64,000 bases of DNA from Methylomonas subterranea (GTDB lineage Bacteria; Pseudomonadota; Gammaproteobacteria; Methylococcales; Methylomonadaceae). The DNA lies in assembly GCF_024505185.1 (NCBI RefSeq), contig NZ_JANIBJ010000008.1, forward strand, positions 59,554 through 123,553, given 5' to 3'. Positions 9,547-64,000 of the stretch are shown piece by piece. The position numbers and the translations under genes are program-made. The notes under the pieces are model-generated. The model made no database searches. It saw only the letters and a list, made by a program, of their open reading frames with translations, and was not told the origin of the DNA. Positions within the stretch are counted from its first letter, which is position 1. The number at the start of each line of letters is the position of its first letter.

Positions 9547-9663
9547 AAACCGCCTCCGGTTATATTGGCAGTGTCGCAACAGGCTGGGCCTAGGCTGTCG
9601 GGCCGATCGGCACGAGAGTCGTGTTGCTTGATTGCCGGTAGTTTGTCGATAGTGTTTTAATGG

Positions 9664-34573: not shown

Positions 34574-37378
34574 CTAGCCGGTATTGCGCATGCCCGCCGC
34601 GATGGCGTTGATGGTGCGCAACAGCGGTTTCATCCAGATACTTTGGCTGTTCTCGTTCTCGCTGTCCTGATTCAGCGCTCTGAGCAGCCCGGCCTGCATG
34701 TAGTTCAGCGGGCCGAGATAATCGTTGCGCCGGCGCAGCGAAGCAGCCAGTTCGGGGTTTTCGGCCAGCAAATGTTCGCATTCGGCGATTTCCAGAATCC
34801 AGTCCACGCAACGGCGATATTCGGCTGCGATCATACTATGTATGCTTTTGCCGATGGCCGGGTCGCTGCAAAGTTTACTGTATTCTTCCGATATGGCCAT
34901 GTCGGACTTGCTGAGGGCCATCTGCGCATTGCCGAGCAGGTTACGGAAGAAAGGCCAGTCTTTATACAGCCGCCGCAAGCTGTTCAGGCGTTCCGGGTTG
35001 CCGGCGCAATAATTTTCCAGGCTGGAACCGATGCCGTACCAGGCCGGAAAGGTCTGCCGCGATTGCGCCCAGGCGAATACCCAGGCAATGGCTCTGACCG
35101 AATATTTCGATCTGTCCTGTTTTTTGCGGTGCGAAGGCCGCGAGCCGATATTGAGTTGGCCGATCTCCTGCACCGGTGTGGCTTCGTAAAAATAATCCAG
35201 AAAGCCGGGTGTGTGTTCGGTCAGTTGCCGATAGCTGCGTTCGCCCAATTGCGCCAGTTCGCTCATCACCGCCAAGTTGTCGGCATGATCCGGTTCCACG
35301 GCTTGCACCAAGCTGGAGCTGGCTTTCATCAGGCCGGTGATGCCCATGGTCAGTTCGTAAACCGCGGTTTCCATGTTGTTGTATCGGTAAAACAGCACTT
35401 CGCCCTGTTCGGTGAATTTGATCTGGCCGCGCACGGTGGCCGGCGGTTGGGCCAGGATGGCTTCGTGGGTCGGACCGCCGCCGCGGCCTATGGTTCCGCC
35501 CCGGCCATGAAACAGCCGGCAGGGTATGCCTTGGTCGTCGGAAATCGCCATTACCTGTTGCTGCGCCCGGTATAAACCCCAGGCCGAGGCCAGAATGCCG
35601 CCGTCCTTGCAGGAATCCGAATAACCCAGCATCACTTCCTGCCGCAGGCCGGAAACTTCCAGCAAGGCGCGGTAAACCGGTTGCGCCAGCAGGCCGCGCA
35701 ATACGCTGTCGATGTGGTTGAGATCGTCTATGGTTTCGAACAGCGGGCTGACGCCGATGTGGCAATACCACTGACCGCTGATCCGGCCCGCCAAGCCGTT
35801 TTGTGCCGCCAGTAGCAACACTTCCATGATGTGGCTGGCCGAATGGGTCATGGAAATCACGTAACGGCTGAAGCAGTCGTGGCCGATTTCTCTGCGCATC
35901 TGCGCCATGACCTGAAATACTTCCAAGGTCTCCAGGGTGTTGGCGCTCAGGCCGCTGGCGTCATAGCCCAGCCCGCCGGCGATGGCGATGGCTTCGCTCA
36001 ACACTTGCAGACGTCGGGCTTCCTCCAGACTCAAGTAATCGATGCCCAGGGCCGCCGACAAGATTTCCGCCACCGCCTGACTGTGGCGGGTGGACTCCTG
36101 CCTAACGTCCAGTTGCATCAAGTGAAAGCCGTAAACTTCCACCAGGCGGATCAAATCCTGCAGATCCCGGTCGGCAATCACCCGGTCGCCGTGGCTGATC
36201 AGCGAATCACGGATCAATTGCAAATCGGCTTGAAAGCTTTGGATGGTGTTATAGGCCGCCGCGTCGGACTGGCTGCTGTCGCCCAAAATGCGTTGTTCTA
36301 TCAATTCCAGCCGGCGATGCATGCGGAATTTCATCAATGCCAGTTTGTGCCGGTAGGGTTCCTGCAGGCAGCCGCGTTCCGCGATGACGGCGCTGTCGCC
36401 CAGCAATTCGCGGTCCTGGCTCAGGCTGTCTAAAAACGCCGCGGTGGGCTGGCACATGCCCAGCGAGAACGACAGCTGATCCTTCAAAATGTCGATGCGG
36501 CGTAGATATTCCTGCGTGATGGTGCGGGCTTGCAGGCGCAGGGCCAGTGCCGTGGTGTAGGGTTTGACATTGGGGTTGCCGTCGCGGTCGCCGCCTATCC
36601 AGGAGCCGAAGTTCAAAAAACCGGGAATGCGCACCTTGCCGGCTTCCTCCGCGCCGTAGACGTCGACCAAGGCGCGGTGAAAGTTGCGATAGACTTGGGC
36701 GGTGGCTTCGAACAGGGACAGGGGAAAGTAGAACAGGCCGGAGTCGATTTCATCGATCACGCCCATGCTGCGGGTCCGCACTTCATCGGTTTTCCACAGC
36801 AATTGGATCTGGCTTTGCAGGCGTTCCAGCGCTTCCTCGCGAAAATAACCCTTGATGCCGGTGTTTTGCAGTTTTTCGTTGCTGACAAAGACGTTACGCA
36901 GGGCCCCGCGCACCGAGCGGCGCTTGGCTTCGGTGGGGTGCGCGGTCATGACCGGCAGATAGTGCAAGTCGTCCAGCAAGGGTTGCAGTTGTTCGGCACC
37001 GATGCCGGCGGTCTTGAAACCCAGCAAGGTGTCGTGAAACGAGCCGCGCCAGTAATGTTTGTGTTTTTCGATTTGACGGCGGCGTTGCTGTAGCTGAGTG
37101 GATTCCTCGGCGATGTTCAGCAAACTGAAATACAGGCTGAAGGCCCGAATCACTTCGCTGAGGGTGTCCGCCGAAAGTCCCTGCAGCAGTTTGTGCAGTT
37201 GCTGGCGGCGGGTGGGGTTGCCGTCGCGTTGCAGGCCGGTGAATTGCTGTTGCAATTGTTCCACGATGGCGGCCGCTTGCGGGTCGGCCTGCTGCTGCAA
37301 CACTTCATCCAGCATGTCTTTCAGCAGTCGGACATTGCTGCGCAGGGTTTTGTCGTCGTATTCGGGAATGCGGGGCAT
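34574..37378 (-). CDS. ppc: Phosphoenolpyruvate carboxylase
   Basis: Carboxylates PEP with bicarbonate to oxaloacetate, an anaplerotic reaction. The 934-residue protein starts MPRIPEYDDKTLRSNVRLL. Catalytic motifs are intact: VMTAHPTEAKRRS with His147, and FHGRGGTIGRGGGPTH near residue 625. GYSDSCKDGG comes just before it, and the C-terminus is AAGMRNTG, the conserved inhibitor-site ending (xNTG). The ATG at 37378 was preferred to one 12 codons upstream because the family begins there. It is divergent from the P-type ATPase. Bicarbonate supply by the DAB/carbonic anhydrase/SulP locus at 55-64 kb could serve this enzyme. Confidence 0.96.
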   Translation of the reverse strand: MPRIPEYDDKTLRSNVRLLKDMLDEVLQQQADPQAAAIVEQLQQQFTGLQRDGNPTRRQQLHKLLQGLSADTLSEVIRAFSLYFSLLNIAEESTQLQQRRRQIEKHKHYWRGSFHDTLLGFKTAGIGAEQLQPLLDDLHYLPVMTAHPTEAKRRSVRGALRNVFVSNEKLQNTGIKGYFREEALERLQSQIQLLWKTDEVRTRSMGVIDEIDSGLFYFPLSLFEATAQVYRNFHRALVDVYGAEEAGKVRIPGFLNFGSWIGGDRDGNPNVKPYTTALALRLQARTITQEYLRRIDILKDQLSFSLGMCQPTAAFLDSLSQDRELLGDSAVIAERGCLQEPYRHKLALMKFRMHRRLELIEQRILGDSSQSDAAAYNTIQSFQADLQLIRDSLISHGDRVIADRDLQDLIRLVEVYGFHLMQLDVRQESTRHSQAVAEILSAALGIDYLSLEEARRLQVLSEAIAIAGGLGYDASGLSANTLETLEVFQVMAQMRREIGHDCFSRYVISMTHSASHIMEVLLLAAQNGLAGRISGQWYCHIGVSPLFETIDDLNHIDSVLRGLLAQPVYRALLEVSGLRQEVMLGYSDSCKDGGILASAWGLYRAQQQVMAISDDQGIPCRLFHGRGGTIGRGGGPTHEAILAQPPATVRGQIKFTEQGEVLFYRYNNMETAVYELTMGITGLMKASSSLVQAVEPDHADNLAVMSELAQLGERSYRQLTEHTPGFLDYFYEATPVQEIGQLNIGSRPSHRKKQDRSKYSVRAIAWVFAWAQSRQTFPAWYGIGSSLENYCAGNPERLNSLRRLYKDWPFFRNLLGNAQMALSKSDMAISEEYSKLCSDPAIGKSIHSMIAAEYRRCVDWILEIAECEHLLAENPELAASLRRRNDYLGPLNYMQAGLLRALNQDSENENSQSIWMKPLLRTINAIAAGMRNTG

Positions 37379-37764
37379 GATCTGATCTCGGTGGATTGAA
37401 CTCGGTAGATACATTACAGCAATGTCTAGCTATAGAAAAATAGAATATATAAATTTTAAACATAGAAATTTTCTATTTATTAGGTATGAATTTTTCCACC
37501 GATAAACTGCCGGGCATAGCGCCAAGCCATGAATGCCGTGGCGTCGGCGCGGTTTAGCCCGGCGGACGGTGTGCCGTGAAGACCTTGCGCGGGCTTGCTA
37601 GCCGCTGGTCGTTAGAGAAACTTTGTGGCAGGATGAATAAAGGGCCTGATTGCGGCACTTGGCGGCAATCGGTTCCGGTTTTACACTCAATAAAACATCT
37701 TTCATTTGAAAATCAATCGTTTGTTGGTTTTTGGGTTTCCGGCTTTAACGCCGAGGAGTAGGGT
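37379..37764. promoter_or_regulatory. ppc / P-type ATPase divergent intergenic region
   Basis: A 386-base gap with a very AT-rich tract (about 37425-37490), unlike its surroundings. The tract holds ATAGAAA and TTTCTAT inverted copies around 37463-37482. This is the likely ppc promoter and possible regulatory site. A 61-codon plus-strand frame at 37576 has no coding support. No RNA gene recognised. Confidence 0.4.
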
Positions 37765-49959: not shown

Positions 49960-51585
49960 TCAATGAATCAAGCCCCGATTTTTCAGTGCGGCATAGATTT
50001 CGTCGACCGTATATTCGTCGCAATTGAACGATACATCGGCTTGGGCGGGATTGCCGTCCAGGCAGAGACACAACAAACCGGCTTGCTTGATGGCGTTTAC
50101 TAATTCCTCTCCGCCGGTTTCCAAAATGGTTGCCGCGTGGCCGGTGTCGAATAATTTACGTTCCAGATGGTAGGCCGCTTGTTGGGCCGCGGTCCCGCTC
50201 AAGCTTATCGCCGAGGCAATCTGGCCGAAACGGGTTGCGCGTTCTTCGGCGGAAACCGGCGACCACTCTTCTTCGCTGGCGTCGCCGGTAATCATGCCGG
50301 CGCCCACCGTGATGTTGGTCAGCCGGTCGATGACGATGAAGGAGCCGGTAGACTTGTTGCGTTTGTAAGGGTCGAATACCACCGGCGCGTTGACGGCAAT
50401 GGTGCAATGGCCGATTTCGTTCAGTTTCAGTTCGTTGGCATCGTGATGTTCCAGGGTGTTGACGTCGATGCGGTGATGAATCAGCGATACCGAGCCGGAC
50501 ACGCTACGGGTGGCCAGTTTGATCAGGTATTGGCGGCCCGGCGTCATGGCCTTTTCCGCCATCCAGACGATGGTGGCTTTGAATTTGTCGGCGATGGTCG
50601 GCGCGTTTCGATGTTGGCCGACGATGATGTCTCCGCGGCTGACGTCGATCTCGTCGCTCAAAGTCAAGGTCACCGCCATTGAGGCAAAGGCTTCTTCCAA
50701 TTCGCCGTCGAAGGTGACGATGGATTTGATATGGCTGGTTTTGCCGGACGGCAACGCGATGATTGCATCGCCCTTATGGAATACGCCGGATGCCACCGTA
50801 CCGCAGAAACCGCGAAAATCCAGGTTCGGCCGGTTGACGTATTGCACCGGAAAGCGGGCGTCTTCGAAGTTGTGGTCGCTGGCGATTTCGATACTGTTCA
50901 ACAATTCCATCATCGGCGGGCCGCTAAACCACGGCATGTTTTGGCTGGGGTTGACCACGTTGTCGCCGTCCAGTGCCGACATCGGGATGAAATGCACGTC
51001 GGGCAAGTCCAGATTTTGGATAAAGGCCAAATAGTCGGCCTTGATTTTATCGAAGGCGTCTTCGCTGTAGCCGACCAAATCCATTTTGTTGATGGCGACG
51101 ATGATATGTTTGATGCCCAGCAAGGAGGCAATGAAACTGTGGCGCTTGGTTTGGGTTTGCACGCCGTAACGGGCATCGATCAATATCACCGCCAAGTCGC
51201 AGGTCGAAGCCCCGGTGGCCATGTTGCGGGTGTATTGCTCGTGGCCCGGCGTGTCGGCGATGATGAATTTGCGGGTCGAGGTTGAGAAATAGCGGTAAGC
51301 CACGTCGATGGTGATGCCTTGCTCGCGTTCGGCTTGCAAGCCGTCGACCAACAGGGCCAAATCGATCTTGCCGGCGCCGGTGGTGCCGGATTTGACGCTG
51401 TCGGCCTGTACTGCGGCCAACTGGTCTTCGTAAATCATTTTCGAGTCGTGCAGCAGGCGGCCGATCAAGGTGCTCTTGCCGTCGTCGACGTTGCCGCAGG
51501 TTAAAAAGCGCAGCAGTTCCTTGCGTTCGTGTTGCGCCAGATAGGCGTTGATATCGGTAGCTATGAGGTCGGATTGGTGGGACAT
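49960..51585 (-). CDS. cysN: Sulfate adenylyltransferase subunit 1 with vestigial APS-kinase-like tail
   Basis: GTPase subunit that drives ATP sulfurylase (CysD) in sulfate assimilation. The 541-residue protein has EF-Tu-like motifs: GNVDDGKS (31-38), [17 protein letters not shown] and NKMDL. The CysN body ends near residue 455. The last 86 residues resemble a CysC APS kinase domain in outline (LSG...[15 protein letters not shown], later [16 protein letters not shown]). But the P-loop GxSGxGKST is replaced by SLSGTAAQQ (461-469) and the middle is missing, so it cannot bind ATP normally. It is separated from its partner cysD (54993) by accessory genes. Confidence 0.93.
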
Positions 51586-52460: not shown

Positions 52461-52985
52461 TCAGCTGTTCATTAGTCCATGTTTTCTTGCACTTTTTTCA
52501 TTAATAACAATGACAGAGTCAAAGCCTATATTCCAAATACAGGTCGTTTTTATCAAAGCCTTTCTAAGCTTATCTTGTAAATCAGAGAGTAAATCGTCTG
52601 GATACTTTTCGATCGCCAGAACCATTTTGAAATCAAGGCTGGCAATATTGGCTTGTATAATAATTTCTGGAAGTTCTGCTTGACTTTGCCTATTTAAATG
52701 CATGGCTATAAACAAAGATAAGCTGTCGACAAACTTTTCTTGTATTTCAGAAATATAACTATCTAGTTGTTTTGGCGCATTTGTTCTGGCTTCAACAATA
52801 TAAATAATCTGCTTATTACTTTTAGCTTTATACAGCAAGAATTCAGCTGATTTTAAACCTGCTCCATGCTTGCTCACTCTATTGTTTAGTGCCCTACGTA
52901 TTTGGCAGTTCTCAATTTCAAAACAATACCCATCTTGGTATGGACCAAATAGACGTTCAAAATCATTTTTTGGATTGCTGATCAT
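52461..52985 (-). CDS. Nuclease-like partner of AAA ATPase, putative defence module
   Basis: A 174-residue protein of no family I can name with certainty. It has a pattern that suggests a restriction-nuclease-like core: Glu48 in LKSAEFLLYK, then the strand IIYIVEARTNAP with Glu65-x-Arg67 where a PD-(D/E)xK enzyme would have ExK. Helical regions (SYISEIQEKFVDSLSLFIAMH and LSDLQDKLRKALIKT) follow. Its ATG overlaps the ATPase stop as ATGA, so the two are coupled. Codon use and base composition are clearly more AT-rich than the flanking cys genes, which suggests transfer. Function is inferred only. Confidence 0.6.
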   Translation of the reverse strand: MISNPKNDFERLFGPYQDGYCFEIENCQIRRALNNRVSKHGAGLKSAEFLLYKAKSNKQIIYIVEARTNAPKQLDSYISEIQEKFVDSLSLFIAMHLNRQSQAELPEIIIQANIASLDFKMVLAIEKYPDDLLSDLQDKLRKALIKTTCIWNIGFDSVIVINEKSARKHGLMNS

Positions 52986-54064
52986 TGGAAGGCCAAATCC
53001 ACTTCTTCTTCGTAAAGACGAATCGACTCGTTAATAATTGGGTTATCCGGCATATCATGCAACAAATCCGTTTGCACCCAATCATCGCCTTCTTTGGACA
53101 GCACCGGAATGGAAAGCTGCTGTTGCCGGGCAATTAAGGATAGTTTTTTGACTACAGCATAAGAATGGCTGGCTAGGAAAAACTGGATGCCATGTTTGGC
53201 GAGAATGGCAATAATATCCAGAAATGTTGAGATAGCTTCTGGGTGCAGAGTGGATTCGGGCTCGTCGATAAATATTATGGATTTTTCGTTTAAATAACCA
53301 TTCCTCAATAATCTATCAAAAACGGCAATTTTCCTTATTCCTTCCGCCGTTGCTCCCATGGCATATCGTTCCTTTTTGTCGAACTCCTCTTGCTCAAAAT
53401 ACCAGCGATTTGTTGTTTCATCATAATTTATCTTTCCACCAATCAGACCTTTTAAGCTGGATGTCGCCTTTTGAAAGTCCCATGAGCCACACCCACTTTT
53501 TGGCGCGTCCTCTTTTGTCCATATTTCGCGAACAGCGGCATCCATGAAATCTTTTTCCGGTGAAATTTGCAGCGCTCGGGCCAAATCCAAATAAGTGTCG
53601 TCAAATCCAAGCACCTGATCTTGTTGTCTGGATTTTAAAATAACATGATAGAAAGACAGAATTTCTTTCGACGGCAGAAAAATTGAATTGTCTTTCCGCG
53701 GAGGGACATCGTTCACCCAACTATCAATAGCATTTCGAAAAGGCTTGGTTAATTGATAACTAAATTTATGGCCATCGAGAGTTAAACCAAATGACAAATT
53801 GGTGGATCCAGTCCTTGATATTAGGTTGCCAACTCCTTCTGCTTGAAATGTCCAGAAAAGCTTATTTAATAAAATATGATCCGGTCTATCCGGATTATCC
53901 CCGCGTTTATAATCTTCCAATGTTCGCACAGCGCTATAAATCGCCTTCAACAAAAACGACTTCCCGCAGCCGTTATTGCCGATTACCAAATTGATCGGGC
54001 CTAAGTTTTGCCAATCAAGCTCGGTGAGTGGGCCGAAGTTTTTTAGCTGGACGCTGTTAATCAT
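52982..54064 (-). CDS. AAA/ABC-type ATPase (OLD-like), putative defence module
   Basis: A 360-residue ATPase of the AAA_15/AAA_21 kind. The start MINSVQLKNFGPLTELDWQN is typical. Walker A GNNGCGKS is at 29-36, Walker B is SIIFIDEPESTLHPEA, and the switch His is in FFLASHSYAV. There is no Toprim domain, so it is not a full OLD nuclease; the nuclease-like activity could come from the coupled downstream gene. An in-frame start 60 codons upstream runs inside cysD and was rejected. It begins 20 bases after the cysD stop and shares its transcript. Composition is AT-rich relative to cysD and cysN. Defence or toxin-like function is a guess from architecture. Confidence 0.8.
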   Translation of the reverse strand: MINSVQLKNFGPLTELDWQNLGPINLVIGNNGCGKSFLLKAIYSAVRTLEDYKRGDNPDRPDHILLNKLFWTFQAEGVGNLISRTGSTNLSFGLTLDGHKFSYQLTKPFRNAIDSWVNDVPPRKDNSIFLPSKEILSFYHVILKSRQQDQVLGFDDTYLDLARALQISPEKDFMDAAVREIWTKEDAPKSGCGSWDFQKATSSLKGLIGGKINYDETTNRWYFEQEEFDKKERYAMGATAEGIRKIAVFDRLLRNGYLNEKSIIFIDEPESTLHPEAISTFLDIIAILAKHGIQFFLASHSYAVVKKLSLIARQQQLSIPVLSKEGDDWVQTDLLHDMPDNPIINESIRLYEEEVDLAFQ

Positions 54065-54084
54065 CTGCGACTTCGATAGTAACT

Positions 54085-54993
54085 TTAAAAATAACCCTCT
54101 CGTTTTTTCTGCTCCATAGAGCCCGCTTGGTCGTGGTCGATCAAGCGGCCCTGGCGTTCGGAGGTGGTGGTCAGCAGCATTTCCTGAATGATTTCCGGTA
54201 GCGTGGTGGCGGTGGATTCGACCGCGCCGGTCAATGGGTAGCAACCCAAGGTGCGGAAACGCACCATTTTCATTTCGACTTTATCGTTCGGCCCAATCGG
54301 CATGCGGTCGTCGTCGACCATGATCAGCATGCCGTCTTTTTCTACCACCGGACGTTCCTTGGCAAAGTACAAGGGCACGATGGGGATGTTTTCCAGGTGG
54401 ATGTATTGCCAAATGTCCAGCTCGGTCCAGTTGGACAGTGGGAATACCCGGATGCTTTCGCCTTTTTCGACCTTGCCGTTATAGATGTTCCACAATTCCG
54501 GACGCTGGTTTTTCGGGTCCCAGCGGTGGTTTTTGTCGCGGAAGGAGTACACCCGTTCCTTGGCGCGGGATTTTTCCTCGTCGCGGCGGGCGCCGCCGAA
54601 GGCTGCATCGAACTGGTGTTTGTTCAGGGCCTGTTTCAAGGCGTCGGTTTTCATCACGTCGGTGTGTTTCTTGCTGCCGTGCGTGAAGGGGCCTATGCCT
54701 TGTTCGACGCCATCCTGATTGATATGCACCATCAAGTCCAGGCCCAGATCTTTAGCCATGCGATTGCGAAATTCGATCATTTCCTTGAATTTCCAGGTGG
54801 TGTCGACGTGCAATAATGGAAACGGCGGCTTGCCGGGATAAAAGGCCTTCATGGTCAAGTGCAGCATGACCGCCGAGTCTTTGCCTATGGAATACAACAT
54901 GACCGGTTTATCGAATTCCGCCGCTACTTCGCGGATGATATGAATGCTTTCAGCTTCTAGCTGTTTCAGGTGAGTCAGTTTGTAATCGGTCAT
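54085..54993 (-). CDS. cysD: Sulfate adenylyltransferase subunit 2
   Basis: Catalytic subunit of ATP sulfurylase, making adenosine-5'-phosphosulfate from ATP and sulfate with CysN. The 302-residue protein starts [20 protein letters not shown] and has the PP-loop [50 protein letters not shown] and a C-terminal [20 protein letters not shown], all as in E. coli. The ATG at 54993 has CGGGA seven bases upstream; one two codons before is possible. Its usual neighbour cysN is about 2.5 kb downstream, past inserted genes. Confidence 0.96.
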
Positions 54994-55106
54994 GAACATT
55001 CCCGGGCGCCGGGCCCTACTATGGGTAAAGGGTTTGAGCCGGCTATTTTAAGGGCAAAGCGGGTGGGGATGCTATCGGCAAGGCAGAAAAACTTGCCCGG
55101 CATCGG

Positions 55107-55159: not shown

Positions 55160-56719
55160 TCAATGGCCGCTGCTGGGTACCAGACAGGCAACTTCAAAGC
55201 CCTGAATTTCGACGTTGATATTTTTATCCGGTGCCGCCGCCAAAAAGTCCGCGATGGTTTCCAGAATATCGTGATCGACGAACAGGGCCTTGGTGCCGTC
55301 GATCAGCAGTTCGCTATCGGCGGGAATGGCGGTGAGATGTTTGCGCAACAGGGCTTTATTTAAAAACGACACGTCTTTATGCAAGCGCAACAGGTAATGG
55401 GAGCCGTGTTCGGTCAGCGTCATGGCTTCGTGGAAATTGGCGCGCAACACAAAGAAAATACCGATTGCCATGCCGATGACGATACCTTGCAACAAATCGG
55501 TTACCAGAATGGCCGCGATGGTAATGGCAAAGGGCAGAAACTGATTCCAGCCCTTGCGGTAAAACTCCAGCAACATTTTCGGCTTGGCCAGTTTATAGCC
55601 GGTTTGCAACAGAATCGCCGCCAGACAGGCCAGCGGAATCATGTTCAGGTACTGGGCGAAGAACAGTACGCTGATCAGTAGTAAAACACCGTGAAAGAAA
55701 CTGGACAAGCGTGTTTGTCCGCCTGCATTGATATTGGCGGCGCTGCGAACGATGACCGCCGTGATCGGCAAACCGCCCGCCAAGCTGCTGATGATGTTGC
55801 CCAGGCCTTGCGCCTTGAGTTCGCGATTGGTGGGCGCAATCCGTTTATGCGGATCCAGTTTGTCGACCGCCTCGATACTGAGCAAGGTTTCCAGGCTGGC
55901 AATGATGGCCAGCGTGAAGCCGATACTGTATATCTTGGGGTTGGTAATCTGGCTGAAATCAGGCAACCGCAGTTGATTGACGAAATTTTCCACGCTGCCC
56001 AATTCCGGCAAGGTGACCAGATGTTTTTGGCTGACCGCCCAAGCGGGGGCATATTCCAAGGCCCAGAGGTTGAAAAGCATGCCCCATGCCACGGCCAGCA
56101 GCGGTCCGGGGATCAGGTTCAGGAAAGAAATACGCTTGATCAAGCGGGTTTCCCACGCCACTAATATCAACAGCGCCACGCCGCTGATCAGGGTGGCGCC
56201 CGGCGAGATGCCCTTCAGAGCATCAAATACCTCGAACAGGCTGGATTGGGCGGTTTCCTGCATATAGCTCTCGTCGCCATCGAAGCTGGTATCGTAACCG
56301 GTCGCATGCGGGACCTGCTTGATGATCAAAATCAGGCCGATCGCCGCCAACATGCCTTTTATCACGGCGACCGGGAAAAACGCCCCGATCAGGCCCGCCT
56401 TCAAAAAGCCCAACACCAATTGCAATATGCCGCCCACCAGCAGGCTGAGCAAAAAAGCGCTATAGCCGCCCAGGGTTTCGATGGCGTTAAAAACAATCAC
56501 GGTCAAACCGGCGGCCGGGCCGGACACGCTCAAATGCGAGCCGCTGGCCCAGGATACCACCACTCCGCCGATAATGCCGGCTATCACGCCGGCAAACAAC
56601 GGCGCCCCGGACGCCAGCGCAATACCCAGGCACAGAGGCAAGGCCACCAGAAAAACCACGATCGACGACGGCAGATCATTCCGTAAATTACTCACGTAAT
56701 ACTGTAAGTCTGTTTTCAT
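55160..56719 (-). CDS. SulP-family anion transporter (putative bicarbonate permease), copy 2
   Basis: A 519-residue close paralogue of the transporter at 7948-9546, collinear throughout. It has MKTDLQYYVSNLRNDLPSS, VFLVALPLCLGIALASGAPL, SGPAAGLTVIVF, about 11 hydrophobic segments and a C-terminal STAS-like domain with ELLIDGTKALFVD. The gene follows beta-carbonic anhydrase by 34 bases on the same strand and sits at the end of the DAB locus, which favours bicarbonate as substrate. Members of this family transport sulfate or bicarbonate, and cysD next door would fit sulfate, so specificity is not fixed. GAGAAAC precedes the ATG. Confidence 0.92.
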   Translation of the reverse strand: MKTDLQYYVSNLRNDLPSSIVVFLVALPLCLGIALASGAPLFAGVIAGIIGGVVVSWASGSHLSVSGPAAGLTVIVFNAIETLGGYSAFLLSLLVGGILQLVLGFLKAGLIGAFFPVAVIKGMLAAIGLILIIKQVPHATGYDTSFDGDESYMQETAQSSLFEVFDALKGISPGATLISGVALLILVAWETRLIKRISFLNLIPGPLLAVAWGMLFNLWALEYAPAWAVSQKHLVTLPELGSVENFVNQLRLPDFSQITNPKIYSIGFTLAIIASLETLLSIEAVDKLDPHKRIAPTNRELKAQGLGNIISSLAGGLPITAVIVRSAANINAGGQTRLSSFFHGVLLLISVLFFAQYLNMIPLACLAAILLQTGYKLAKPKMLLEFYRKGWNQFLPFAITIAAILVTDLLQGIVIGMAIGIFFVLRANFHEAMTLTEHGSHYLLRLHKDVSFLNKALLRKHLTAIPADSELLIDGTKALFVDHDILETIADFLAAAPDKNINVEIQGFEVACLVPSSGH

Positions 56720-56753: not shown

Positions 56754-57386
56754 TCAATCGGCATAACGGTAAATCGGGTTGATCAGAGTGTTGTGATCCA
56801 ATTTGATCAGTTCGCTGAGCAAGCCGTCATTCAAGCCGTATACCCAGCCATGCAACGATGGCTTGTGGCCATGCTTCCAGGCCGATTGAATAATGGAGGT
56901 ATGTGCCAGCCGATAAACCTGTTCGATGATATTCAGTTCGATCAGCCTATCGACTTTTTTCTCCGGGCTGATGGATTCCAGTTCTTCTTCGTGCAGGCGG
57001 TACACGTCCTTGATGTGCGTCAGCCACTTATTGGCGATTACCAGATCGGTTTTTTGCGGCTGCAATGCCGCCTTGACGCCGCCGCAGCCGTAATGGCCGC
57101 AAACGATCACATGTTTCACCTTTAGCACCGAAATGGCGTATTGCAACACGCTCAGGCAATTGAAATCGGTCATGATGACCTGATTGGCGATGTTGCGGTG
57201 CACGAATATCTCGCCGGGTTGGGCGTTGACGATGGTGTCGGCGGGTACCCGGCTGTCCGCGCAGCCTATCCAGAGAAACTCCGGTTTTTGCTCCTTGGCC
57301 AGATTGATAAAAAAACCGGGGTCCTTGGCGGAAACTTCCTGCGACCAGGCTTTATTTTCCAGTAGTAACTTGGCGGGTGTATGCAT
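56754..57386 (-). CDS. can: Beta-class carbonic anhydrase
   Basis: Interconverts CO2 and bicarbonate in the cytoplasm. The 210-residue protein has zinc ligands in the standard order: Cys and Asp-Arg dyad in GCADSRVPAD, then His and Cys in CGHYGCGGVKAA. The RNIANQV and W..HI segments also match. No signal peptide, so it is cytoplasmic, close to Can of E. coli in length. It is followed at 34 bases by the SulP gene and preceded, after 132 bases with a candidate operator, by the NuoM-like genes. In a DAB system this location could limit back-diffusion, or supply bicarbonate for PEP carboxylase. Confidence 0.93.
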   Translation of the reverse strand: MHTPAKLLLENKAWSQEVSAKDPGFFINLAKEQKPEFLWIGCADSRVPADTIVNAQPGEIFVHRNIANQVIMTDFNCLSVLQYAISVLKVKHVIVCGHYGCGGVKAALQPQKTDLVIANKWLTHIKDVYRLHEEELESISPEKKVDRLIELNIIEQVYRLAHTSIIQSAWKHGHKPSLHGWVYGLNDGLLSELIKLDHNTLINPIYRYAD

Positions 57387-57518: not shown

Positions 57519-59078
57519 CTATCGGTTAATGTTATACCCTTCACGTATCCGGTCGGAAACTAAAGCGTCCGCCACCCATGTCGTCGGGTGATGCAGTCGT
57601 TGCAGCCACAGCGTCAACGCGCTTTCCTGCCGGCTTAACAGCCATTGCGGGTATACGCCCAGCCACAACACCAACAGCGCCGGTATGGCCAAAATACATA
57701 ATTCGCGGGCGCGCAGATCTTGCGGCGCGGCCGCTCCGGTGTGCCGAGTAGGGCCGAATAGTCCGCGCCGGGCAAATCCCGTCACATAGGCGGCGCCAAG
57801 CACGGCAACAAACAAAGCGACCAGAGCCAGGGCGGGGAAGCTTTGTAAAATGCCCAGCAACATCAGCAATTCAGCGGGAAAACCGTTGGTCAGCGGTACG
57901 CCGATACTGGACAGGGCGAACACAAAAAACAAGACCGTCAAGCGCGGCATCGGTTTGGCCAGGCCGCCCAAATCAATCAACTCGGTACTGCCCAGGCGTT
58001 GCTGAATCATGCCGGCTATCAGCATTAAACTGCCGGCCACCACGGTAAAATTAAGCAGCTGCATCATGGCGCCCTGCAGACCTTGCGGGGTAAACGTGGC
58101 GATGCCGACCAGCACCAAACCCACGTGACTGATACTGGAATAGGCCAGCAAACGGCGCAGATTGGTTTGTTGCAGCGCAATCAAGCCGGCATAGACCAAG
58201 GTAATACTGCCCAGAATGGCCAGCAGCCAACGATGCTCAACCGCCGCGGCGGGCGCCAAGGGAATAGCGAAACGCACGATGCCGTATACGCCTAGTTTCA
58301 AGGCTGTCAACTGGGCGGTGATTTGTGCCGGCGCCTCCATGGCGGTAGTGGGCAGCCAGGTATGAAAGGGGGCTAGGGGCGCCTTGACCGCAAAGCCGAC
58401 CAGCAGCAAAAAAAAGATCAGATTTTGCGCATCGCGGGCCAGCGGCGTTTGCAATAAAACCGGCAGGCTGAAGCACAGCTCTCCCGGGCTGGCGCCGCCG
58501 GTCAGTTGGGCGTGATTCAAGGCCAGCAGAATGATGCCGAACAACAGCGGTACGCCGCCGAACAGCATGTACAGGGTATATTTCATGGCCGCGTAACGGC
58601 GTTCGGCACCCGCGCCCCACAGGCCGATCAAAAAAAACAGCGGCGGCAGGGTCAACTCCCAGAACAGGAAAAACAGGGTCAGGTCAAGAGCGGTGAACAC
58701 GCCGATGGTGATGCTTTCCAGCGTCAGCAACAAAGCCAGATGAAAGCGGCTCAGTTGCCGTATGCTGTTCCAGCCCGCCAGTAAGGCCGCCACGGTAACC
58801 CAGGCCGTCATTGGCAAAAACAGCACCGAAATACCGTCCACTCCCAATTGATAATGTACGTTGAGACCGGCTATCCATGGGTAGTCTTCCCGCATTTGAA
58901 AGCCGCCGTAGCCGGGATCGAAGATGCAGAGCACCAGCAGGCAGAACACCAATTCTAACCCCGCCACCGACAGGGCCCAACGTTTGGCGCGTAGCGGGTT
59001 TTCGATAAATGCCAGCGGCAAGGCGCCCAACAAGGGCCAGATCAGGCAGAGGGACAACAAGGGAAAGGGCTCATTCAT
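57519..59078 (-). CDS. NuoM-like antiporter subunit 2 of the DAB locus
   Basis: A 519-residue proton-translocating-type membrane protein of the NuoM/MrpD family. It has about 13-14 helices, with FLFWELTLPPLFFLIGLWG (the conserved Glu of TM5), KAPLAPFHTWLPTTAMEAP and ALKLGVYGIVRFAIP (the conserved Lys). LLAYSSISHVGLVLVGI follows. The start MNEPFPLLSL at 59078 overlaps the previous gene by 8 bases; ATGs at 59090 and 59096 are possible. No other complex I subunits are encoded nearby, so it is a module of an ion-coupled complex with the DabA/DabB-like proteins, not NADH dehydrogenase. Gap to carbonic anhydrase is 132 bases. Confidence 0.85.
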   Translation of the reverse strand: MNEPFPLLSLCLIWPLLGALPLAFIENPLRAKRWALSVAGLELVFCLLVLCIFDPGYGGFQMREDYPWIAGLNVHYQLGVDGISVLFLPMTAWVTVAALLAGWNSIRQLSRFHLALLLTLESITIGVFTALDLTLFFLFWELTLPPLFFLIGLWGAGAERRYAAMKYTLYMLFGGVPLLFGIILLALNHAQLTGGASPGELCFSLPVLLQTPLARDAQNLIFFLLLVGFAVKAPLAPFHTWLPTTAMEAPAQITAQLTALKLGVYGIVRFAIPLAPAAAVEHRWLLAILGSITLVYAGLIALQQTNLRRLLAYSSISHVGLVLVGIATFTPQGLQGAMMQLLNFTVVAGSLMLIAGMIQQRLGSTELIDLGGLAKPMPRLTVLFFVFALSSIGVPLTNGFPAELLMLLGILQSFPALALVALFVAVLGAAYVTGFARRGLFGPTRHTGAAAPQDLRARELCILAIPALLVLWLGVYPQWLLSRQESALTLWLQRLHHPTTWVADALVSDRIREGYNINR

Positions 59079-60609
59079 GAGCGGGCTCATTGGCATGATG
59101 GCTGTGATGTTCGGGATAGTGTTCGCCGATTTCGCTGGCTTCCTGATCGATGAATTTCAACCAGGGCGTGGTGTAAAAACCGGTACCCATCAATAAACCG
59201 CAAATGACCAGCGCAATGATACGCTCCTGCATCACCGGGTGATGGATGCTGCTGTAGGGTTGTACAAATCTTTTGGGATAAGCTATGAACAAACGCTGAA
59301 ACGCCCACAGTAAAAATCCGGCCGCCAGTACGTTGCCGACCAGAATGGCAATCGCGATGAACCAGCCGTGTTCTTCTATGGTGCCTTCGATCAGCAGGTG
59401 AGCGGCGTCGAATCCCGGCGTGCCAGGCATCACCATGGTGCTGAGGGCGGAAATCAGAAATAGCAGGCCGATGGCCGAATTGTTCTCGAACAAGCCGCCC
59501 AAGCGGGGCAAATAAGACGTGCGGGTGCGCTCGTAAATCAGACCTATGCTGAACAACATGCCGGCGGTGGCCAAGCCATAAGCCACCGACAGCAAAATAC
59601 TGCCTTCCAGGGCAAAATCGTTGAAGGAAAATACCCCTATCACCAGCATGCCGGTATGGCTGATGACCGCGAAAGCCAGCAAGCGGCGCATATTGATCTG
59701 CATCAGTGCCAAAAGCGCGCCGTAAAAAATTCCGATCAGGCCCAGGCTGACCACGAAATCCGCCCATTGTTCGGCCGCGCCCGGCACCAACGGTAAAATG
59801 AAGCGAATCAAGGCATAAATGCCCAATTTCAGACCGTGCAAGAAAATCGCCGCGCTGGCCGCCGTGCCGTGTTCGGCCAGCGGAGGCAGCCAGGCGTGAA
59901 AAGGAAACAACGGCATGCGCACCGCAAAGCCGAAAAACAACAATATGAAAATCAGCGTTTCGCGCGGAATGGCCAGATTGTGATGCTTCAGCGCCAACCA
60001 GTCGAAACTGAAATCCAGCCCGCTTTGCATCAGACCCAGGCTCAGCAATAAAAAACCCGCCAGACTCATGCCCAGGCCCGGCAACCAATATTGCAGCAAG
60101 GTTTTGATGGCTTGGTTGCGCTGGCCGCCGGTACCGGCGGATACCGTCAGCAATATCACCGGCAGCAGTTCCAGCAAACACCAAAACCAGAATTGCATGG
60201 CGTTCAAGGCGCAAAAGGCGCCGATCAAAATCCCCTGATAGGCCAACAGGCAGGCGACGAACAAGCGGTCCAGCCGATGGCGGGTAATCATGGTGTAGAC
60301 CAGGGCCAGCAAACCCAGAATCGCGGTCAGGGGAATAAACAGAATGTTGGTGCCGTCCACGCCGACCCGGTAACCCAAGCCCAAAAAATCCACTCTCTCG
60401 GCCAAATGGATGCCGGGTGCCCGCGAATCGAATATCCGCAACAGGTAAAGGCTCAACAGCAGATTCAGCAGCGCGCCGGCCAAGCCGATATTCAGGCAGC
60501 GGGTCGGTTTGCCGCACAACACCAAGCCCATGGTCAGCAGCGGCACCAGGGTCAGCGCGCTCAGCAGGGGAAAAAACGTCGCCGCTTGCCAGTAAACGAT
60601 CCCGGTCAT
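59071..60609 (-). CDS. NuoM-like antiporter subunit 1 of the DAB locus
   Basis: A 512-residue protein of the NuoM/MrpD antiporter family starting MTGIVYWQAATFFPLLSALT. It has FWCLLELLPVILL (TM5 Glu), RMPLFPFHAWLPPLAEHG, FLHGLKLGIYALIRFILP (conserved Lys) and LLAFAVISHTGMLVIGV. The C-terminus is His-rich (HYPEHHSHHANEPAHE), unusual for the family and perhaps metal-binding. The ATG overlaps the stop of the NuoL-like gene as ATGA. Long frames on the same strand that extend upstream, or that run out of phase, are shadows of the neighbouring membrane genes. Confidence 0.87.
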   Translation of the reverse strand: MTGIVYWQAATFFPLLSALTLVPLLTMGLVLCGKPTRCLNIGLAGALLNLLLSLYLLRIFDSRAPGIHLAERVDFLGLGYRVGVDGTNILFIPLTAILGLLALVYTMITRHRLDRLFVACLLAYQGILIGAFCALNAMQFWFWCLLELLPVILLTVSAGTGGQRNQAIKTLLQYWLPGLGMSLAGFLLLSLGLMQSGLDFSFDWLALKHHNLAIPRETLIFILLFFGFAVRMPLFPFHAWLPPLAEHGTAASAAIFLHGLKLGIYALIRFILPLVPGAAEQWADFVVSLGLIGIFYGALLALMQINMRRLLAFAVISHTGMLVIGVFSFNDFALEGSILLSVAYGLATAGMLFSIGLIYERTRTSYLPRLGGLFENNSAIGLLFLISALSTMVMPGTPGFDAAHLLIEGTIEEHGWFIAIAILVGNVLAAGFLLWAFQRLFIAYPKRFVQPYSSIHHPVMQERIIALVICGLLMGTGFYTTPWLKFIDQEASEIGEHYPEHHSHHANEPAHE

Positions 60610-62186
60610 GCGCCGTACCCCAATGCCACCATCAGGGTGATCAACACAAACAAAATCAGATAGCGCGGGCTCAACAACAATTGTTCGAAACGGTTGGCGC
60701 GGCGGCCCAAGCGGCGGCCCCAGTTGATGGAATCCCGGCCTATGCCGCGCAAAATAAAGCGGTATTCGAACCAGCTCAGCAAACTTGCCGTCCATTGCGC
60801 CAACTTGCCGGCCAAACCGCTGCCGCGCGCGAAGCTGTCCTCGTCGTTGTCCAGCTTGGCGCCCATTTTGCTTTCTTCCCATTGCGCCAGGGAGGAAATG
60901 GCTTTGATGGCCGGCGCCGGCGCGCCGAGGGCCGGGTCTACGATGCGGTCGTCGATGTTGCGCATGTCCCTGGCCAATTGTTGAACCGGTTTCACCAACA
61001 TCCAATCCAAGGCCGGCTCCAGCCAGCCGCGCTGCAGGGAGGCCATGAAGGCCCAGCGGCAATTGGCCCAACGCGGCGATACCGGGCGGATAGGATGGCC
61101 GTGGGTGGCGTGTAGTATCGACGGCGCGGTCAGCAGCAAATAACAACGCACCACCGCGTGGGCGCATAAATGCCAGCCGGCCAGGTTCCAGAATCCCAGG
61201 CCGCATTCCAGAAACATCAAGCCCAGTTGCGCGGAGGCGGCGTAAATCTGAGAGCTTTTGATGTCGGTTTGGCTCAGGCCCACCCAGTAGCTGTAAACCG
61301 TCGTCAAGCCACCCACCAGCACCAGCAACTGCATGGCCGTGGGGGTTTGGTTGAACAGGGGCTGCAATTGAATCAGCAAAAACACACCGGCATGCGTCAT
61401 CACGCCGCCGTAAAAAATGGCGCTGGAAGGCGTGGGGCCTTCCAGCGCGCGCGCCAACCAGGGCGTAAACGGAATTTGCGCCGACTTGGCAAATGCCGCC
61501 AGGGCAAAACAAAGCGCCAGCAGGGTGGCGTCGCCGCGATCCAGGTCGGCCGCGCCGCGGTTGATGGTTTGCCAATCGCAGTTTTCCAGCCAGAGCAGGG
61601 CCAATGCGGTACCCAACAGGAAGCCCGCATCGCCTATCCGGTTGCTGACGAAAACCCGCACGGCGTTATGGGCGGCAACCGGCCTGTCATAGGCGTAAGC
61701 AATCAGCCAATAGGAACAAACTCCGGCCGCTTCCCAGCCGGCGAAGCTAAACAAGGCGTTGCCGGACAACACAAGCAATAACATGGCCGCCGCAAACAGG
61801 TTCAGAATGAAAAAAAAGCGGTGGAAGCCAGCTTCGCGGTGCAGGTAATTCACCGAAAAACGCATCGTCAACAATAACAACAGCGCAAACAGGGCGGCCA
61901 CCCGCAGGTTGAAGCCCGTGCCGCGCAGTGAAAAAGCAATGCCGACGCGGCCGCTACCCAGCCAGTGGCCGTAGAACTGACTATCCGCCAGCCAGCCGAA
62001 GCTATCCGCCGCCAAGGCGCCGCAGGCCAGCAGGGCGGACAGGGTCATGCCGGTCAGGCTGATGCGGGCGCTGTGGGCTTCATCCGCTTCGCCGGCAATA
62101 AGGCCGAAAAAATGCAGCCCGCCTATCAATGCGGCGGCCAGCATGGGCAAGGCGGGCAGCAGAATAATCCAGCCGGCGTCCATCAT
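60606..62186 (-). CDS. dabB: NuoL-like DabB subunit of inorganic-carbon pump
   Basis: A 526-residue NuoL/MrpA-like membrane protein that in DAB systems couples ion flow to CO2 hydration by DabA. The start MMDAGWIILLPALPMLAAAL overlaps the DabA stop as ATGA. Antiporter motifs are FAGWEAAGVCSYWLIAYAY (TM5 Glu), VFVSNRIGDAGFLLG, AKSAQIPFTPWLARALEGPTP and YGGVMTHAGVF. The C-terminus has an extra charged cytoplasmic part (about 430-480, EESKMGAKLDNDEDSF) before a final helix. Direct fusion in phase with DUF2309 supports the DabB assignment over a complex I subunit. Confidence 0.87.
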   Translation of the reverse strand: MMDAGWIILLPALPMLAAALIGGLHFFGLIAGEADEAHSARISLTGMTLSALLACGALAADSFGWLADSQFYGHWLGSGRVGIAFSLRGTGFNLRVAALFALLLLLTMRFSVNYLHREAGFHRFFFILNLFAAAMLLLVLSGNALFSFAGWEAAGVCSYWLIAYAYDRPVAAHNAVRVFVSNRIGDAGFLLGTALALLWLENCDWQTINRGAADLDRGDATLLALCFALAAFAKSAQIPFTPWLARALEGPTPSSAIFYGGVMTHAGVFLLIQLQPLFNQTPTAMQLLVLVGGLTTVYSYWVGLSQTDIKSSQIYAASAQLGLMFLECGLGFWNLAGWHLCAHAVVRCYLLLTAPSILHATHGHPIRPVSPRWANCRWAFMASLQRGWLEPALDWMLVKPVQQLARDMRNIDDRIVDPALGAPAPAIKAISSLAQWEESKMGAKLDNDEDSFARGSGLAGKLAQWTASLLSWFEYRFILRGIGRDSINWGRRLGRRANRFEQLLLSPRYLILFVLITLMVALGYGA

Positions 62187-64000
62187 GCTTGCACTCCGGA
62201 TAACGTGGGTTGCTTGATCAGCATCGGCGCTACCGCCCGGGTTTCGTCGCGATAACAATCCGACGAATTTTCCCTGAGCGGCAATTCGGCCTGCGCTGCT
62301 TGCCAAGCGCTAAATCCGCGTCCGCGTTCGAACACGAATATTTCGCCGCTATCGGGGTCCTGGGCGCTCAAATGCACCCAGCCGCCGCCTATCAATTCCT
62401 GTAAATCCGGCTGACGGGCATAAATTTGTTCCAGTATGGCGGTTTTGGCTTCCACCACGATCTGTAGGCGCATGGCTTCATGGATTTCCACCATCTGTAA
62501 TGGCAGGCCGGTGCGTAAGTCGCCGCTGGCGCCTTCCATTACCCCGAACAGGCCGGTGACATTATGCGGAATCTTGGTGCCGCAGCCCAGGCGCTCGTTG
62601 TTGACGCATGAAAAATAATACTCCAGGCTGATGCCGGCGCCGACCGGGCCGGCGGTCAGCAGAATGGCTTCCAGGATGCTGCCGTCCGGGTCCTGGCTGG
62701 GATCGTAGGAAATCAAAAACAACCGGCGGTCGAAAAATACCCCCTGGGTCGCGGCGCGGCGGCCGATGAACGCCGCCGCATTGGTGGCGTGGCCGAATTC
62801 CGGCCTGACCTGGCTGAGGTCCATGGCGCGGTTTTGCACGTGGCGCATGGCGTCCCGGGCGGTTTTGGGATAGGCGGAAGATGCGAAGCGGCGGCAGCGT
62901 TCCGCCGCCGCCAAACCGTCGGCGGTCTGCAGGCAATCCTTGAAGGCGGCGAATTCGGCTTGCAGCGCGGCGGGTATTTCTTCCGCATCGAACCAGGTGA
63001 TGATGTCGCTGCAGGTGTCGTGTTGGGCGCCGACAAACCAAGTGTCGTCGGGAATGGCAATGCCTTGTTCGCGCAACAATTGCCGCACTCCGGGCCGATT
63101 GGCCATGGCGGCGAAAGCGCGCGCGTTGGGTCCGCCCTGACGTCCGCCGCAGGCGCCGCAATCGTGCGCCGCTTCATGCGGATTGTTCTGGCTGGTGGAA
63201 CCATGCCCCATCAGGGCCACGATGGGAGCAAAGCCGGCGGTCAAGCCCGTCGTTCTCAGAAACCGCGCCACCCGTTCGGCCTGTTCCAGGTCGGTAAAAC
63301 CCAACCTGGGCGCGGTCGGGCTGGCGGGCGCGGCGGAATCGTCGGCAGTGACCAGCAGCTGCGTGGCGACCGGCGGCACCAGCCAACCTTGCCAAGCCTG
63401 TTCCAGCCGACGTTGTTGGGTCGGCCAAAACAATTTGCCCAGCATGCGCGCCAATTGAATCGGCGCCAGCAGGAATTGCAGCGGATAGGCCCACAGCGGA
63501 TTTCGGCGCAGGCTTTGATATAACTGATAAGCCAGGCCGTCCGCTCTTTGCAGACCCTTGCGGTGGGCCCGCAGCTGTTCTTCCTGGCCGGGCCGGGCGA
63601 CTTCTTCGATGCGGTGCGCCGGCGTTACCACCACGGGGCACAACGGTGTGGTGCGATGCGCGTCCAGGCCGCGGTAATGCATGGGGATGCCGAAAAAACC
63701 GGCCACCCCCAGGGTTTCGATGGCGGGGTTGAGTTCTTCCAGGTGGCGGCGAAAACTCTCCTCCCGTTCGTCCATGCAAAAATAAATCTGTGCTTGCGGC
63801 CTGCGCTCGCGGCGCAACCAGCGCCCCCGCCCATGGTTGGCGCGCAGGGCCCGCAACAGGTCCCGCCGGTAATGGTGCTCGTAGGCCTCCAGCCAGATCT
63901 GGCGCTGTTGGCTGGGGCTAAATTCGTCGATCAGAGTCAGCCAGCCGAGCAATTGCGCTTTGCTTGCTTGGCGCAGGTCCGCCTCGGCCAGGCCCAGGGC
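62183..64000 (-). CDS. dabA: DUF2309 protein DabA (partial, N-terminus outside window)
   Basis: Soluble zinc protein that, with DabB, converts CO2 to bicarbonate vectorially as a dissolved-inorganic-carbon pump. About 605 C-terminal residues are present; the frame is open through the window edge. The beta-carbonic-anhydrase-like site is visible: Cys and Asp in FCMDEREESF (Cys codon at 63776-63778), then His in MGHGS and Cys in HDCGACGG. The spacings (Cys-x-Asp, and His to Cys of 15) equal those in the Halothiobacillus enzyme (C351/D353, H524/C539). The ends of the DUF2309 core (SYDPSQDPDG, SCVNNERLGCGTKIPHNVTG) are intact. It is the first gene of the four-gene overlap chain in view. Confidence 0.92.
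   Translation of the reverse strand, partial: ALGLAEADLRQASKAQLLGWLTLIDEFSPSQQRQIWLEAYEHHYRRDLLRALRANHGRGRWLRRERRPQAQIYFCMDEREESFRRHLEELNPAIETLGVAGFFGIPMHYRGLDAHRTTPLCPVVVTPAHRIEEVARPGQEEQLRAHRKGLQRADGLAYQLYQSLRRNPLWAYPLQFLLAPIQLARMLGKLFWPTQQRRLEQAWQGWLVPPVATQLLVTADDSAAPASPTAPRLGFTDLEQAERVARFLRTTGLTAGFAPIVALMGHGSTSQNNPHEAAHDCGACGGRQGGPNARAFAAMANRPGVRQLLREQGIAIPDDTWFVGAQHDTCSDIITWFDAEEIPAALQAEFAAFKDCLQTADGLAAAERCRRFASSAYPKTARDAMRHVQNRAMDLSQVRPEFGHATNAAAFIGRRAATQGVFFDRRLFLISYDPSQDPDGSILEAILLTAGPVGAGISLEYYFSCVNNERLGCGTKIPHNVTGLFGVMEGASGDLRTGLPLQMVEIHEAMRLQIVVEAKTAILEQIYARQPDLQELIGGGWVHLSAQDPDSGEIFVFERGRGFSAWQAAQAELPLRENSSDCYRDETRAVAPMLIKQPTLSGVQA

Follow-up and report, generated by a model that had tools for sequence, protein, structure and literature searches.

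A DAB-type locus of five genes with four antiporter-type subunits in Methylomonas subterranea and related bacteria

DAB2 of Halothiobacillus neapolitanus (DabA2-DabB2) is a two-subunit system with a single antiporter-type subunit. Its structure was determined by cryo-electron microscopy in 2026 (PDB 9rd0) with CO2 hydration driven by the proton-motive force as the model, and the introduction of the same paper mentions MpsAB as a reported Na+/HCO3- symporter (PMC13144422). The COGNAT paper of 2017 describes a 'clade C' of ybcC (COG3002) that is located upstream of a nuoL homologue and is frequently accompanied by COG1008 (NuoM) and COG0659 (SulP); its authors suggest that how many ions are moved follows from how many membrane subunits there are, one per subunit (PMC5700660). 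The locus analyzed here is found at the end of a 64,000 nt stretch of the Methylomonas subterranea genome (contig NZ_JANIBJ010000008.1, positions 59,554–123,553; termed the window) and continues on a second contig. It displays the gene order nuoM0-dabA-dabB-nuoM1-nuoM2, followed by genes for a beta-carbonic anhydrase and a SulP transporter. The five-gene set is conserved in methane-oxidizing bacteria and in many uncultured relatives. As judged from the sequences, its products probably form one membrane complex that would use inward proton flow to convert CO2 to bicarbonate within the cell; assembly, direction and stoichiometry are all part of this proposal.

The COGNAT clade C resembles the five-gene unit in that dabA is upstream of a nuoL homologue and extra NuoM and SulP genes are present. 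The portion of that paper considered here differs in that it gives no set of five genes, no NuoM upstream of dabA and no carbonic anhydrase function, and in that it proposes outward, energy-conserving pumping (PMC5700660). NuoM genes near dabA were already in print in 2017. Neither a description of the five-gene class or of its residue changes nor an experiment on such a system was found in the open-licence full texts searched.

All genes of the unit in the window are on the minus strand. The dabA gene at positions 62183–64000 encodes the C-terminal 605 residues of a long-type DabA (PF10070 positions 243–747, 648.5 bits) and is cut by the contig end, as contig C8 ends at window position 64000. 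The other, N-terminal half, with a TTG start and a match to PF10070 positions 1–243, is at the start of contig C2 on the minus strand (L005:1–1376). The dabA-bearing ends of the two contigs display an exact 20-bp overlap in the right orientation. We infer that C8 and C2 adjoin in the genome, and relatives that have the five genes in one uninterrupted stretch back this. The joined dabA product is 1057 aa. Upstream of dabA on C2 is a third NuoM-like gene, nuoM0 (490 aa), whose stop codon overlaps the dabA TTG start by 4 nt.

Downstream of dabA is dabB (60606–62186), which encodes a NuoL-like protein of 526 aa that lacks the region of NuoL transmembrane helices (TM) 12–15 (PF00361, 130.9 bits). 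It is followed by nuoM1 (59071–60609), NuoM-like, 512 aa, with altered channel residues (PF00361, 130.9 bits), and nuoM2 (57519–59096), NuoM-like, 525 aa or 519 aa if translated from the ATG at 59078, with canonical channel residues (PF00361, 221.3 bits). The overlaps are 4 nt for dabA/dabB and 4 nt for dabB/nuoM1; nuoM1 and nuoM2 overlap by 26 nt if nuoM2 begins at its first ATG and by 8 nt if it begins at ATG 59078. The initial annotation had recognized dabA, a NuoL-like dabB and two NuoM-like genes with tight overlaps, and all of these are present. It had counted three antiporter-type subunits, however the number is four, as nuoM0 is beyond the window edge. The His-rich tail it noted on one NuoM-like subunit is at the C-terminal end of nuoM1 (...HYPEHHSHHANEPAHE). 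This tail is common to the close Methylomonas rows but is partial in L010, and its HYPxHH form is absent from the Nitrosomonadaceae row L013, thus it does not define the class.

A search of relatives based on nuoM2 gave 11 loci, seven of which (L007–L013) have the order nuoM0-dabA-dabB-nuoM1-nuoM2 and four of which are complex I loci. Carbonic anhydrase and SulP genes are downstream in six of the seven (L007–L012), the exception being the Nitrosomonadaceae metagenome-assembled genome L013. Among 151 Methylococcales genomes, nuoM1 has a match in 81 and DabA in 92. With the host excluded and a match span of >2700 bp required, 75 of these genomes have a long DabA, and 74 of the 75 also have nuoM1. 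For 68 of 80 nuoM1 genes a long dabA is 1.7–3.0 kb upstream on the same strand; six others have a long dabA elsewhere and six have no long DabA match. A count of 29/29 is of loci preselected as complete and is no test of conservation.

A draw of 398 genomes from the phylum shows DabA in 68, with long matches (2691–3054 bp) in 33 and short matches (2217–2394 bp) in 32; the rest are one genome with both a long and a short DabA, three with fragments only, and the host. Loci were picked by hand from this list, 20 of the 33 with long and 20 of the 32 with short DabA, and their genes were delimited by domain coordinates. All five genes are present in order in 17 of the 20 long-DabA loci. The exceptions are L046 and L051, with DabA alone, and L058, where the contig is cut and DabA and DabB only are represented. 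The short-DabA loci uniformly have one DabB, located upstream of DabA (20/20), and none has a NuoM (0/20). The suggestion of the initial annotation, a DAB variant enlarged by additional subunits of the antiporter type, is thus supported by conservation in relatives. Contrary to the grouping that would have refuted it, the host has no local complex I or Mrp, and in relatives the extra genes are beside DUF2309.

The unit is split in six genomes. In five of these nuoM0 adjoins dabA (G140, G123, G118, G078 and G082), and in G129 it is apart from dabA; dabB-nuoM1-nuoM2 are together in the three split genomes examined for this (G140, G129 and G078). G307, from which L046 was taken, has its four membrane genes together on a different contig, arranged as nuoM0-nuoM2-dabB-nuoM1. 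Co-occurrence of the genes survives splitting of the cluster.

The host genome (104 contigs, 99.9% complete, 0.28% contamination), whose closest named relatives are Methylomonas, has a second DAB locus on contig C55, a two-gene dabA-dabB with a divergent SulP. The proteins with PF00361 in this genome are the four of the five-gene unit and the C55 DabB, with none besides. There is no match anywhere in the genome to NuoH (PF00146) or to NuoK/MrpC (PF00420), and none to complex I or Mrp; the two DAB loci are the sole PF00361 loci. The host NuoM-like subunits therefore have no other home, and the unit differs in this respect from respiratory complex I, with its NuoH and NuoK, and from the Mrp antiporter, in which MrpC goes with MrpA and MrpD.

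Subunit trees were built with 98 rows (a quick tree) and with 72 rows (a careful tree with bootstrap and Shimodaira–Hasegawa-like approximate likelihood ratio, SH-aLRT, values, from which the Hyf and a small number of other rows were omitted). Each subunit forms one clade, i.e. nuoM0 (100/100), nuoM1 (100/100), nuoM2 (99/97) and DabB (100/99), and all of these are apart from the complex I and Mrp rows; the DAB-specific clades for which the initial annotation proposed to test the NuoM-like genes are thus present. The nuoM1 and nuoM2 clades are sisters (96/93). The nuoM0 clade is nearest to complex I NuoM, with support that is not strong (91/86), and the DabB of the five-gene unit is placed together with that of C55, which is a long branch.

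Channel residues were compared at the positions of E. coli NuoM Glu144, Lys234, Lys265 and Glu407, in loci many of which are close relatives. The nuoM0 sequence has E-K-K-E in 36/36, and nuoM2 has Glu144 in 35/39, Lys234 in 39/39, Lys265 in 38/39 and Glu407 in 38/39. The complex I NuoM rows show the same residue set in 8/8. In nuoM1 the canonical residues are found in 0/39, 0/39 (Arg in 39/39), 39/39 and 0/39, with a His adjoining the last position in 38/39. That nuoM1 is merely degenerate was considered and dropped in view of its invariant Arg231, Lys261, Asp401, His404 and Glu408 (among the matches listed, 120 of 1434 homologues). Across the 39 wider loci the Arg (39/39), Lys (39/39) and His (38/39) hold and no others do.

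The five-gene DabB has Glu in 36/39, Lys in 39/39 and His in 39/39, with no conserved residue at the fourth position. The TM5 Glu is present in one of nine two-gene DabBs. In DAB2 this position is Ile151, and restoring Glu there halved the growth yield (PMC13144422). Retention of a NuoL-type Glu in a DabB that is beside other antiporter subunits would fit lateral coupling between subunits.

DabB also differs in length of similarity to NuoL. The five-gene DabB matches the first 362 columns of the NuoL profile (E 2.4e-71) and then jumps to the C-terminal region, columns 548–611 (E. coli residues 529–587; 47% probability, E 2e-4). Its C-terminal part alone matches NuoL with 60% probability (E 8e-5), and this stretch has no such match to the NuoM or NuoN profiles. 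The 20 two-gene DabBs, by comparison, match NuoL 4–571 in one stretch. From the literature, we take the skipped part of NuoL to hold TM12–15 and the matched C-terminal part to be the lateral helix. Residues 354–497 of the host DabB display no membrane segment in a plain hydropathy scan, which undercounts helices. A predicted structure of DabB (8 rows, mean pLDDT, i.e. predicted local distance difference test, 44) was not used. 2M complex I and its relatives likewise have additional NuoM, together with a lateral helix proposed to extend across the subunit that was added (PMC9040806, citing Chadwick 2018). The five-gene unit, unlike these, has no NADH or quinone module, and its head is DabA.

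DabA in the five-gene class is ~1090 aa, versus ~820 aa in DAB2. The long DabAs form one clade (99, SH-aLRT only), L046 and L051 included, and have about 230 extra columns, chiefly at host residues 103–203 and 367–476. The DAB2 zinc ligands C351, H524 and C539, together with D353, are conserved in all 53 DabA rows, among them 22/22 five-gene rows with the host included. In the 1057 aa numbering, the host zinc ligands are C527, H718 and C733, plus D529 and H856. The two systems also share a NuoL-like DabB (PF00361) encoded side by side with DabA, however the five-gene unit has dabA upstream of dabB, and it has five subunits, four of the antiporter type.

Two head residues differ. The column of finger Glu444, a residue needed in DAB2 (PMC13144422), has Glu in 0/22 five-gene rows (Asp in three) and in 21/22 short rows, in a finger that aligns less surely than the zinc site. 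The Leu658 column, where beta-carbonic anhydrases have Gln or His, is His in 22/22 five-gene rows and Leu in 21/22 short rows. The C55 DabA of the host also has His and Gln at the changed places, which counts against exclusivity to the five-gene class, and the changes are therefore older than this class. The His would place the long DabA site closer to an ordinary beta-carbonic anhydrase. By analogy with DAB2 this may be too simple, as DAB2 L658Q had no free carbonic anhydrase activity in vitro, while other changes there were harmless (PMC13144422).

In the complex proposed above, DabA with its complete zinc site would act as the catalytic head and face the cytoplasm. DabB would supply a half-channel under DabA, and its C-terminal stretch, similar to the NuoL lateral helix, would hold the NuoM-like subunits. 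The nuoM0 and nuoM2 products would each provide a full proton path of the NuoM type, which could admit more than one proton for each CO2, and nuoM1 may be a modified connector. Proton paths in separate subunits would replace the finger Glu that DAB2 needs. Hydration of CO2 coupled to complex-I-type membrane subunits is also known for the cyanobacterial NDH-1MS, which differs in that it is driven by ferredoxin oxidation (PMC13144422); the five-gene unit encodes no redox subunits. A bolder proposal, put forward tentatively and with doubt slightly prevailing, is that vectorial carbonic anhydrases may comprise a third class, represented by this unit, in addition to NDH-1MS and the two-gene DAB. 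This would have a complex-I-like arm of four antiporter-type subunits, a beta-carbonic-anhydrase head in place of a redox head and a NuoL that lacks its second half but keeps a lateral-helix clamp, and by moving ~3 protons per CO2 it could enable cells that lack RuBisCO to hold bicarbonate at very low CO2.

Alternatively DabA-DabB could be an ordinary two-subunit DAB, with the three NuoM-like proteins forming a separate, co-expressed cation/proton antiporter for acid or sodium load. The NuoM-like proteins do resemble Mrp antiporter subunits, dabB-nuoM1-nuoM2 can stand apart from nuoM0-dabA, and membrane genes are kept with a zinc-less DabA in four genomes of one genus (below). Yet the split genomes pair nuoM0 with dabA and dabB with nuoM1-nuoM2, which cuts across the proposed division, and an MrpC/NuoK-type subunit is absent from the host genome. 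In addition, the DabA-DabB pair does not look self-sufficient, because the TM12–15 region is missing from DabB and the finger Glu from the long DabA. This explanation is therefore considered unlikely. A chance origin of the NuoM-like genes, as complex I or Mrp genes gone astray beside dabA, is almost certainly wrong. The NuoM-like products fall in NuoM families of NCBIfam, as such an origin would have it, but it is already contradicted by the host genome content, the separate clades and the conserved order.

A different function is also conceivable, i.e. import of bicarbonate or reversible operation, for instance Na+/HCO3- symport as proposed for MpsAB or bicarbonate dehydration, in place of one-way CO2 hydration. 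The His of the long DabA is found in ordinary reversible beta-carbonic anhydrases, and the carbonic anhydrase and SulP genes downstream in Methylomonas would suit this function. Such a role is quite improbable given that nuoM0 and nuoM2 carry the residue set of all the complex I NuoM rows and that the DAB2 L658Q protein was without free activity.

Several observations weigh against the proposed proton-driven complex. One is that nuoM1 retains a single canonical channel residue out of four. Glu444 and Leu658, both central to the DAB2 model, differ, and the mechanism of DAB2 may therefore not apply to the five-gene unit. A cytoplasmic beta-carbonic anhydrase encoded next to the unit would dissipate a bicarbonate pool. 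The predicted structure of a long DabA from the relative L007 (mean pLDDT 81.9) has no Foldseek match at E ≤ 0.001; the best match is weak, to the beta-carbonic anhydrase CsoSCA (E 2.7e-3), and the 50 matches listed do not include the entry for DAB2. In G097, nuoM1-nuoM2-carbonic anhydrase are on a 3.8-kb contig and the genome has no dabA or nuoM0 match. In G009 a long DabA precedes one NuoL and two NuoM proteins that are complex-I-like (L038, C22 8802–17278). These three proteins group with complex I in the trees and the DabA has Leu at the 658 position, and the arrangement is apparently a separate, independent recruitment of antiporter subunits.

The genus coded g5 bears on the proposal in both directions. 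It has nuoM1 in seven genomes, with a full-length long DabA match in two (G078 and G082); in the other five a diverged DabA adjoins nuoM0. DabA is shortened and zinc-ligand motifs are missing in four of the seven, wholly in G028, G032 and G108 and for the His/Cys part in G122. Retention of the membrane subunits with a zinc-less DabA suggests that the membrane part is able to serve a different purpose. The fifth diverged genome, G072, has a long DabA frame that keeps the zinc motifs. The nuoM2 TM5 Glu is changed to Gln in all four g5 genomes examined (G028, G122, G032 and G072), the DabB TM5 Glu is lost in three of these four, and nuoM0 is canonical in four of the five with diverged DabA and altered in G072. 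With the degenerate g5 loci excluded, nuoM2 shows E-K-K-E in 35/35 and DabB E-K-H in 35/35. From this comparison the channel residues are fixed where DabA is intact and relaxed where the unit decays, which counts in favour of the proposed complex. Loss need not begin at the DabA head, since G072 keeps its zinc motifs and has changed channels. L122, L123, L124 and L125 are loci of four g5 genomes in which a DabA-like protein with an incomplete zinc site is encoded next to nuoM0.

The RuBisCO large subunit (PF00016) has no match in the host genome. Phosphoenolpyruvate (PEP) carboxylase has a single match, at 34574–37414 on the minus strand of the same window. The anaplerotic purpose given by the initial annotation is no more than plausible on this basis; in the host, bicarbonate would be a substrate for PEP carboxylase and for further carboxylases. 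The unit is a candidate bicarbonate supply for methanotrophs that lack RuBisCO. If the proposed complex exists, complex-I-type pumping modules can stack on a non-redox enzyme, and the role of the extra antiporter subunits (one more ion each, or connector) is testable by rescue of E. coli in air. The zinc-ligand loss and channel changes in g5 would then be a natural experiment on coupling between head and membrane.

The beta-carbonic anhydrase gene (56754–57386, minus strand; PF00484, 177.4 bits) is 132 bp downstream of nuoM2, and the SulP-family anion transporter gene (55160–56719, minus strand; PF00916, 206 bits) is 34 bp further downstream. A second SulP-family transporter is encoded in the window at 7948–9579 on the minus strand (PF00916, 204.6 bits). 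For some Methylomonas a small gene separating nuoM0 from dabA was considered and set aside, as the two loci inspected show just unsupported frames of ≤120 aa. Hydrogenase-4-like (hyf-type) membrane clusters are found in methanotroph genomes at L009 (14535–21318) and L116, and the L009 cluster is convergent with the five-gene unit. A candidate defence pair on the minus strand (52461–52985 and 52982–54244) matches the PADLOC models HEC-02B and HEC-02A with 142 and 459 bits. It is flanked by a gene at 54085–54999, presumably a CysD-like sulfate adenylyltransferase, and by a CysN-like GTPase gene at 49960–51585 (PF00009).

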